Program-made: the position numbers and the translations under genes | NCBI GenBank assembly: GCA_022572185.1 | Contig: JACZWL010000035.1 | Location: 1 to 34,099, forward strand | Direction: 5' to 3' | Source of the DNA: Pseudomonadota bacterium | Lineage (GTDB): Bacteria > Pseudomonadota > Gammaproteobacteria > Steroidobacterales > Woeseiaceae | Length of the DNA: 34,099 bases | Notes under the pieces: model-generated | The model's input: the letters and a program-made list of their open reading frames with translations, nothing else | Databases searched by the model: none | Told to the model about the DNA's origin: nothing | In this document: one piece after another, positions 31,853 through 34,099 of the stretch | How the letters are laid out: every line of letters starts with the position of its first letter | Position numbering within the stretch: position 1 is the first letter of the stretch

Positions 31853-31989
31853 TTCCCCACAGAATTTAGCTGGGCAACTAACGATCTGCGCATACATGCT
31901 GCACCGTAAAGTTACTTGCTGTATTGGCCACCACCTGATCAGGCAAACACCGTCAGACAAGTTCGGGACTGATTAACCGCTGTACACTT

Positions 31990-32207
31990 TATTCTGTTGA
32001 AAAACTCTGTTTTCGAGGTCGATGAAAAGACCGCAGCTCCTCAGACGCATTTTCATTTTTTTCATATGAGGGGGCATTAAATGCAGACGAAAATTCGCCA
32101 TGCGACTTCTGCTGAAACCATGCGCGAAAACGATGTTGGATTTTCGAAGTAATTGGCATTCAGTGGAAAATTGGCGTCTTCAAGTTTTGAAGTTTTTCAA
32201 CAGAATA
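31990..32207 (+). mobile_element. MITE with 17-bp perfect terminal inverted repeats and 5-bp target duplication
   Basis: The ends 31990-32006 and 32191-32207 are exact inverted repeats (TATTCTGTTGAAAAACT). The flanks repeat CACTT directly (31985-31989 and 32208-32212), a 5-bp target duplication. The 218-bp interior has no transposase. A 23-codon ORF (ATG 32081, preceded by GAGGGGG, stop 32150-32152) may be the relic of a transposase start. The TGTTGAAAAA core is shared with the element at 11633-11800. It is non-autonomous and would need an outside transposase. Confidence 0.82.
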
Positions 32208-32267
32208 CACTTGGGAGCGGCCAGTCTGGTGAGAGACTTTGAACCGGCAGGAAGCGACCCAAGCGGA

Positions 32268-32375
32268 CATCGCGAGCAGCTGGCCCGCTATCGCGGCGAG
32301 ACCGAGACAGGCCTCATGAAGGCCATCAAGGCGGCCCTGGAGCCGAAAAACATCATAAATCCCGCTAAGGTAATT
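32268..32375 (+). pseudogene. C-terminal remnant of an FAD-linked oxidase (GlcD/lactate dehydrogenase type)
   Basis: About 36 codons read 'HREQLARYRGETETGLMKAI', then 'KAALEPKNIINPAKVI'. This is the terminal helix and 'P..I.NP.K' motif of FAD-binding_4/FAD-oxidase_C enzymes such as GlcD. Sequence upstream does not continue the family, and the frame runs on past the usual end point into unrelated residues until 32438. The MITE lies just before it. It is the leftover end of a deleted gene. Confidence 0.6.
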
Positions 32376-32474
32376 TGCCGACCAGTTCCCATTGTCTGCC
32401 ACGTTATTCGGGCACACTTGGCCAATGTAAGTGCTTGATTTGAGGTAGGGCGGCCAAACGACTGGGTACCGGGC

Positions 32475-33833
32475 ATGAACGCCAATTCTGACAACCTGAA
32501 GCGACCCTATGCGGAGGATTTCTCGGAACTCGAGACCCGGCTGCGAAGCCAGGTCGATGACGAGACCGTGTTGGCGGAAATTCACGTCGCGTTGAGAGGG
32601 CTGCTGTCGAATAACGGTGACAGCGAGTCACGCATCCGCGAGATTCTGCAAAAGCGTTACGATGCGGGCGACCTGCGTCCCGAGAGTCTCGAGCTGGTGC
32701 AGAAAATGCTCGACCGGATACGGTCCAAAGGCGCCTCGACCTTGCCGGTTGACAGTGAACCGGCCCCGAAGGAAGAAGTGCCGTACGTTGCTACCATGGT
32801 AATTGGCGACGAGGCTCCGCAGACCGCTACAATCGTTATTGCCGACGAAGCGCCCGCCGAAAAAAAAGCAACGGCCAGGCAGATTCAGGTTGGCTCGGTT
32901 CTGCGTGACCGATTCCTGCTGCAACGGCAAGTACTCGGCGGCGGCACGGGTGTGGTTTACAAAGCACTCGATCAGCGGCTTGCGGAAGCCGGCGAGGCAG
33001 ATACTCACGTCGCAATCAAAGTGCTGCCCTCAGAGTTATCGCGCAATGCAAATGCGCTTCGGGCACTGCAACAGGAGGTTGCAAAAGGGCGGTGCCTGGC
33101 ACACCCGAACATCGTGCGCTTCATCGACCTCGACCGCGAAGACGATTTGTACTTTATTGTCATGGAGTGGCTCGAGGGCAAATCGCTGGCATCCATTCTG
33201 GATGCATCCGGCAGCAAGAAGATCGATCTCGAAACGACGCTGGATATTATAAAGCAGGTAAGCCTTGCACTCGACTACGCCCATCAGCGTGGTGTTGTTC
33301 ACGGCGACATTAATCCAGGCAACGTCAGGATCACACCGGACGGTGCGGTGAAATTATTTGACTTTGGCATTGCGCGAATACTGCAGAAAGAGCAGGACGC
33401 CCAACCCGATTTTGACCCGCGCGAGCTCGGTTCGAAGTCGCCGGAATATTCGAGCATGCAGGTATTAACCGGTGAAGATCCTGTCCCTGCTGACGATGTA
33501 TTTTCGCTTGGCTGCCTGATGTATCGACTGGTCGCCGGGTATCGTGTCTTTGGTCCCAGGAGTGCGGCGGAGGCCGCGTCGGAGGGAATGGAACCGCAAC
33601 AACCTCCGGGTTTGAGTGACTCTCAGTGGCTGGCGCTCAAGAAGGCGTTGGCCTATTCGCGGGTCCCCCGATTTTCGTCACCCGCGGAGTTTTTGGCCGC
33701 ATTTGGTGAATTGCCGAAATCGCAACCGGTGCGACCGGCACCACCGGCGGAACCGGCGCCCTGGCGGACTGGGTCCCGAAGGAGGATGCCTTTGTCTGGC
33801 GCCGCCTACGGGAGGCCGGCGCCATCTTGCTAG
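32475..33833 (+). CDS. Serine/threonine protein kinase, C-terminus replaced
   Basis: 452 codons. The N-terminal helical region (1-90) leads to a linker with two similar acidic stretches ('[10 protein letters not shown]', '[10 protein letters not shown]'), then a Hanks-type kinase domain (about 146-410). Visible are the glycine loop 'GGGTGVVY' (155-162), K182 in 'VAIKVL', E201, the catalytic loop 'HGDINPGN' (H276, D278, N283) with Gly replacing the Arg of HRD, and 'DFG' at D296. Catalysis should be possible; Gly in HRD suggests no activation-loop phosphorylation control. After the Pro/Ala linker near residue 428 the protein becomes meaningless, because the DNA switches to an amidase gene read in another frame. 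The expected membrane helix and sensor part are absent. The gene is either truncated by rearrangement or an assembly join. Confidence 0.8.
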
Positions 33834-34099
33834 GGAAGATGAACATGCATGAGATGGCGGCAGGGTCCACCAACCTTAACCCCTTCTACGGAGCCTGCCG
33901 GAACCCCTGGAATCCTGAGCGAATTACGGGAGGCTCCAGCGGCGGTAGTGGAGCCGGCGTGGCCGGTCACCTCTGTTTTGCCTCTATTGGGAGCGACACC
34001 GGAGGTTCTATCCGCATGCCCGCCTCTCTGTGCGGCACTGTGGGCCTCAAGCCCACCTTCGGACTGGTCAGCACTCGAGGTGCTCTCTACCTGGCGTGG
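33761..34099 (+). CDS. Amidase signature family protein, internal fragment (runs off the window)
   Basis: The frame beginning near 33761 reads '[20 protein letters not shown]', '[18 protein letters not shown]', '[11 protein letters not shown]', '[16 protein letters not shown]', '[15 protein letters not shown]' and '[16 protein letters not shown]'. This is the core of the amidase signature family (GatA, fatty-acid amide hydrolases and others), including the Ser-cis-Ser-Lys region's 'GGSSGGS' and the nucleophile in 'GSDTGGSIR'. No start codon, ribosome-binding site or N-terminal third (with the catalytic Lys) precedes it; the upstream DNA belongs to the kinase gene. Codons here favour C-ending forms more than the neighbours. 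It continues past the window end. Confidence 0.85.

Follow-up and report, generated by a model that had tools for sequence, protein, structure and literature searches.

The window, that is, the whole stretch of 34,099 bp that was analysed, is the complete contig C40 of the host genome G000, an assembly of 99 contigs with a completeness of 96.08% and a contamination of 0.46%, in which no SSU rRNA (16S) was found. Towards its right end, which is also the contig end, a Ser/Thr kinase gene gives way to an amidase-signature gene. An abrupt switch from the kinase to the middle of an amidase in another reading frame had been proposed in the original prediction and was borne out, with a PF00069 match on one side, a PF01425 match on the other and the two in different frames. 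The join lies about 350 bp before the window end, close to the approximately 340 bp that had been estimated. The features of this region are listed below; G027 is a genome of another genus of the host family, and its contig C63 carries the kinase orthologue.

32475..33748, + strand: Ser/Thr kinase, N-terminal part and kinase domain (PF00069, homology to G027:C63), belonging to the lineage of this genome and ending inside an Ala/Pro-rich linker
33732..33748, + strand: junction zone, a 17-base stretch with an exact copy in the G027 kinase linker
33740..34099, + strand: probable foreign tail, an internal amidase-signature fragment (PF01425) that lacks a start, an end and the Lys conserved upstream
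33749..33833, + strand: out-of-frame run-on of the kinase ORF (32475..33833) into the tail, terminating in a stop

The kinase and its junction with the amidase

The kinase ORF starts with an ATG at 32475 and matches the Pfam profile PF00069 with an E value of 8.6e-35. Its translation shares 79% amino acid identity over 427 aa with G027:C63, 61% with a paralogue of 776 aa on contig C77 of the same genome and at most 62% with other family members among the matches listed; kinase matches were present in 54 of the 60 genomes searched, the own genome included. At the DNA level, window positions 32271-33748 align to G027:C63 15523-17010 with 83.6% identity. The closer relationship to a gene from another genus than to the own paralogue suggests a lateral transfer of the kinase. 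In the catalytic loop (window 33300-33323) the C40 kinase reads HGDINPGN and the C77 paralogue HADVKPGN, while the G027 orthologue, with HGDVNPGN, has the same change from Lys to Asn. Lys is the usual residue at this position, and the activity of the C40 kinase may be altered by the replacement.

In the homologues compared, a linker, a hydrophobic segment (recognized by eye) and an extended C-terminal region come after the kinase domain. The best-matching homologues are ORFs of approximately 740-980 aa, with the exception of the G027 ORF, which has 539 aa and reaches the end of its contig. In C77 and in the genomes G021 and G012, one ORF extends across both the kinase and the C-terminal region. 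Strong kinase-domain matches in G000 were confined to the truncated gene on C40 (936 bits) and the complete gene on C77 (509 bits), the rest scoring below 90 bits among the matches listed.

The DNA homology with the G027 orthologue stops at 33748 and the amidase homology starts with the codon at 33740, which places the join within 33740-33748. A break thus exists as predicted, but it sits slightly to the left of the suggested interval 33755-33765. Past the join, the kinase frame runs through about 27 nonsense codons to a stop that ends the ORF at 33833, and this out-of-frame run-on is a product of the join. The amidase frame is open from 33722 to the window end without a start. The prediction that the amidase lacks a start and the kinase an end was correct for the amidase; for the kinase it is correct only in the sense that the stop reached by its frame is not a proper end.

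The longest word common to the junction and the G027 linker comprises 17 bases (33732-33748), and its last 9 bases double as the first amidase codons (Thr-Thr-Gly). When 200 random 62-base stretches of the window, unmatched in composition, were compared with the G027 linker, the longest shared words had a mean of 7.0 and a maximum of 11 bases. On the amidase side an exact source of the 17-base word was not found; the longest match to the SAR202 bacterium OSU_TB53, described below, was 10 bases.

A fitting C-terminal half on contig C58 and the conserved gene order

The original prediction had proposed to look for the full kinase elsewhere, and a fitting C-terminal half is present on contig C58, right from base 1. 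When G000 was searched with the C-terminal region of the G021 homologue, matches were confined to C77 and to C58, where the half is truncated and the match starts at base 292. C58 is open in the linker frame from its first base; a hydrophobic segment, again judged by eye, comes next, and then a Calx-beta domain (PF03160, with an E value of 2.7e-17). The kinase domain is on C40 and the Calx-beta domain on C58. The linker at C58:1-159 consists of 4.4 near-identical copies of a 36-base tandem repeat, and the linkers of G027 and of the paralogue C77 differ from it. By this comparison the Ala/Pro-rich kinase linker is a fast-changing segment.

Both sides of the apparently split gene are bridged by G027:C63, which carries the counterparts of the C40 kinase and of the C58 half in one piece. 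C58 120-337 aligns to G027:C63 17002-17219, directly adjoining the part matched by the window; this match lies partly within repeats, where its register is uncertain, and extends into unique sequence. Of the four loci compared, only G027:C63 matched the initial 700 bases of C58 in its DNA, and C77, G021 and G012 gave no match there. The protein identity of C58 amounts to 45% with G027 (132 residues) and to 57% with C77 (264 residues), most of the latter match being located in the C-terminal region that is absent from the G027 contig. The C40 copy resembles the Ser/Thr kinase of C77, with its putative C-terminal Calx-beta region, in its N-terminal region and kinase domain (61%) and, on C58, in its C-terminal part, but differs in being apparently split, with the kinase domain on C40 and the C-terminal half on C58.

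In C77, G021 and G012 the genes are arranged in the order PLP-dependent enzyme, FAD-linked oxidase, kinase and IlvD-type dehydratase; the gene families were assigned by Pfam on the C77 genes and, for the oxidase, on the window remnant. Just before the kinase, C40 contains a 3' remnant of the oxidase gene that is 78% identical to the oxidase of G027 and covers its residues 478-514. Directly after the kinase part, C58 contains the start of an IlvD-type dehydratase gene, likewise as a remnant. Because these neighbours match the conserved gene order, a single locus appears to have been cut in two at the end of C40 and the start of C58. From the gene order, the G027 bridge and the tally of kinase halves in the genome, we infer that the C58 half belongs to the same gene as the C40 kinase, and C58 probably follows C40.

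The kinase locus would span window positions 32271-33748 and G000:C58:1-1937. Relative to G021, about 775 bp are missing from the dehydratase remnant. Judged by its truncated neighbours, the C40/C58 locus seems to be a duplicate of the conserved C77 locus that is in decay. Just before the oxidase remnant, window positions 31977-32220 hold a 244-bp segment with imperfect terminal inverted repeats of 30 nt that are 80% complementary. This segment is like a MITE or a transposon remnant; it is present as one copy only, with no further copies found in this genome. No inverted repeats were found at the right-hand side of the C58 remnant.

Affiliation and composition of the amidase tail

The tail matches PF01425 with an E value of 9.7e-49 at profile positions 64-179 of 445. 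It shares this profile match and the Gly/Ser-rich stretch with the amidase-signature enzymes, but differs from them as a fragment without start and end and without the upstream Lys; it is not a complete amidase but an internal fragment only. This Lys, kept in 94 of 94 amidase homologues, is absent before 33740 because the amidase homology begins downstream of it, and the same holds for a Gly that 82 of the 94 share. In amidase-signature enzymes this Lys is catalytic.

The nearest relative of the tail was found in the SAR202 bacterium OSU_TB53 (Chloroflexota), with 78% amino acid identity, or 80% when counted from 33740, and the next relative reached 64% (best 80 of 185 relatives in named genomes). 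Matches occurred in 95 of 100 genomes from the SAR202 side, OSU_TB53 included, with the same best and next values of 78% and 64% among the matches listed. In the host family, 99 of 100 genomes besides G000 matched the tail, with at most 57% identity among the matches listed. The comparison of both sides by taxonomy, which had been recommended with the original prediction, separates a kinase with 79% identity to a member of the same family from a tail with its closest affinity to SAR202. The tail paired with the SAR202 protein (support 100/99) in a 95-row tree. The wider position was weakly resolved, and the pair stood apart from most other Chloroflexota rows. The amidase on contig C14 of G000 and three same-family amidases paired with a Neptuniibacter protein in the same tree (100/88), no more than a hint at the host's taxonomy. 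A comparison of the RND protein with plasmids was uninformative in this respect, as the 20 hits listed had 35-37% identity and mixed origins.

G000 contains four other amidase-signature genes, which are 42-53% identical to the tail. A search with the full SAR202 protein did not find the rest of the tail amidase in this 96% complete genome, but only the window fragment and the four paralogues. A DNA search with the tail in 60 genomes, the own included, gave matches in 6, and the other five were short and weak (best 44.6 bits). A plasmid and a viral source of the tail were rejected: of 6 PLSDB records none covered 80% of the query, and 12 viral stretches matched a pattern, none of them encoding a relative.

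The overall GC content of the tail (0.640) is an unusual outlier against the window mean of 0.558 (SD 0.035); only 0.15% of the 342-base stretches of the window (step 50) reach it. The predicted shift in codon usage is present but weak, with a third-position GC of 0.73 for the tail against 0.63 for the kinase. Stretches of 360 bases attain 0.71 within the kinase and 0.75 within the RND gene, and third-position GC is not decisive as evidence for a foreign tail. Taken by its sequence affinities, the tail most likely has a foreign origin. Its nearest relative found is a protein of SAR202-type Chloroflexota, but the phylum of the donor is not certain, since the pair stands apart from most other Chloroflexota rows and amidase genes move between lineages.

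Origin of the junction

The kinase-amidase junction is very probably an assembly chimera at the contig end. The real kinase would continue from the Ala/Pro-rich repeat linker through the hydrophobic segment into the Calx-beta domain, and this continuation would have been assembled as the start of C58. The assembler was presumably unable to pass the repeat of the linker, of which a short GC-rich word appears to resemble the codons of the amidase motif Thr-Thr-Gly-Gly-Thr-Gly. The contig would then have been extended by about 350 bp with the amidase gene of another community member. The exact mechanism of the join, as well as the absence of the join from any cell, is what we infer from the sequences. 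Several observations speak against a chimera. C40 and C58 do not overlap, with 10 bases as the longest junction word common to both contigs; the match of C58 to G027 is of uncertain register within the repeats and reaches only 45% protein identity over the 132 residues; the 17-base word has no exact source on the amidase side; the tail groups apart from most other Chloroflexota; and in a genome that is 96% complete, the failure to find the rest of the amidase is no proof.

The original prediction had left the choice between assembly and recombination as the process that joined unrelated DNA in a GC-rich repeat, and the joining itself was supported by the C58 half, the G027 bridge and the SAR202 affinity of the tail. 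Real recombination, either in the organism as such or in a subpopulation, by which foreign amidase DNA replaced the C-terminal half of the kinase at a repeat hotspot, would agree with the position of the breakpoint within the repetitive linker. It would also agree with the state of the locus, an already decaying second copy with truncated neighbours, where rearrangement occurs. Such an event is improbable considering the fitting open C-terminal half at the start of C58, which is followed by the remnant of the expected neighbour, the failure to find the remainder of the amidase in a 96% complete genome and the location of the break only about 350 bp from the contig end. The specific form of this event, an illegitimate recombination in the linker with a SAR202-like donor that would leave part of the population with a kinase devoid of the Calx-beta part, is equally improbable. 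A chimera is favoured over recombination because the C-terminal half is found on C58, G027 bridges both parts and the amidase is nearest to SAR202.

A programmed frameshift or a true kinase-amidase fusion protein would account for two frames that are each open on their own side of the junction. In G027, C77, G021 and G012, however, the linker leads to the kinase's own continuation and not to an amidase, and the missing N-terminal part of the amidase, which includes the Lys conserved in all homologues, effectively rules this explanation out. A misjoin within the same genome, with a host amidase whose other parts were left unassembled or unbinned, could appeal to the family's presence in the host and to the assembly completeness of 96%, but it is highly unlikely with no orphan half of the tail amidase found in G000, four host amidases just 42-53% identical and 100 same-family genomes at no more than 57% among the matches listed.

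The GUNC paper (PMC8201837) describes how misassembly builds chimeric contigs out of fragments that stem from several sources, and it considers misassemblies to be relatively rare compared with mis-binning. The chimeric contigs of metagenome-assembled genomes treated there resemble the end of C40 in that fragments of different sources lie in one contig; here the join is located inside one gene, at a repeat and at the contig end, and the part that looks foreign is a piece of a single gene of about 350 bases. At this size, the C40 tail would be expected to escape methods that rely on many genes for each contig. The junction illustrates how a linker rich in repeats can seed a chimeric contig tail that is probably below the reach of whole-bin contamination checks. 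In practice, the last approximately 350 bases of C40 should be trimmed or flagged. For the biology of the organism the kinase-amidase join has little significance, and an annotation of the kinase as a truncated or fusion gene should be avoided.
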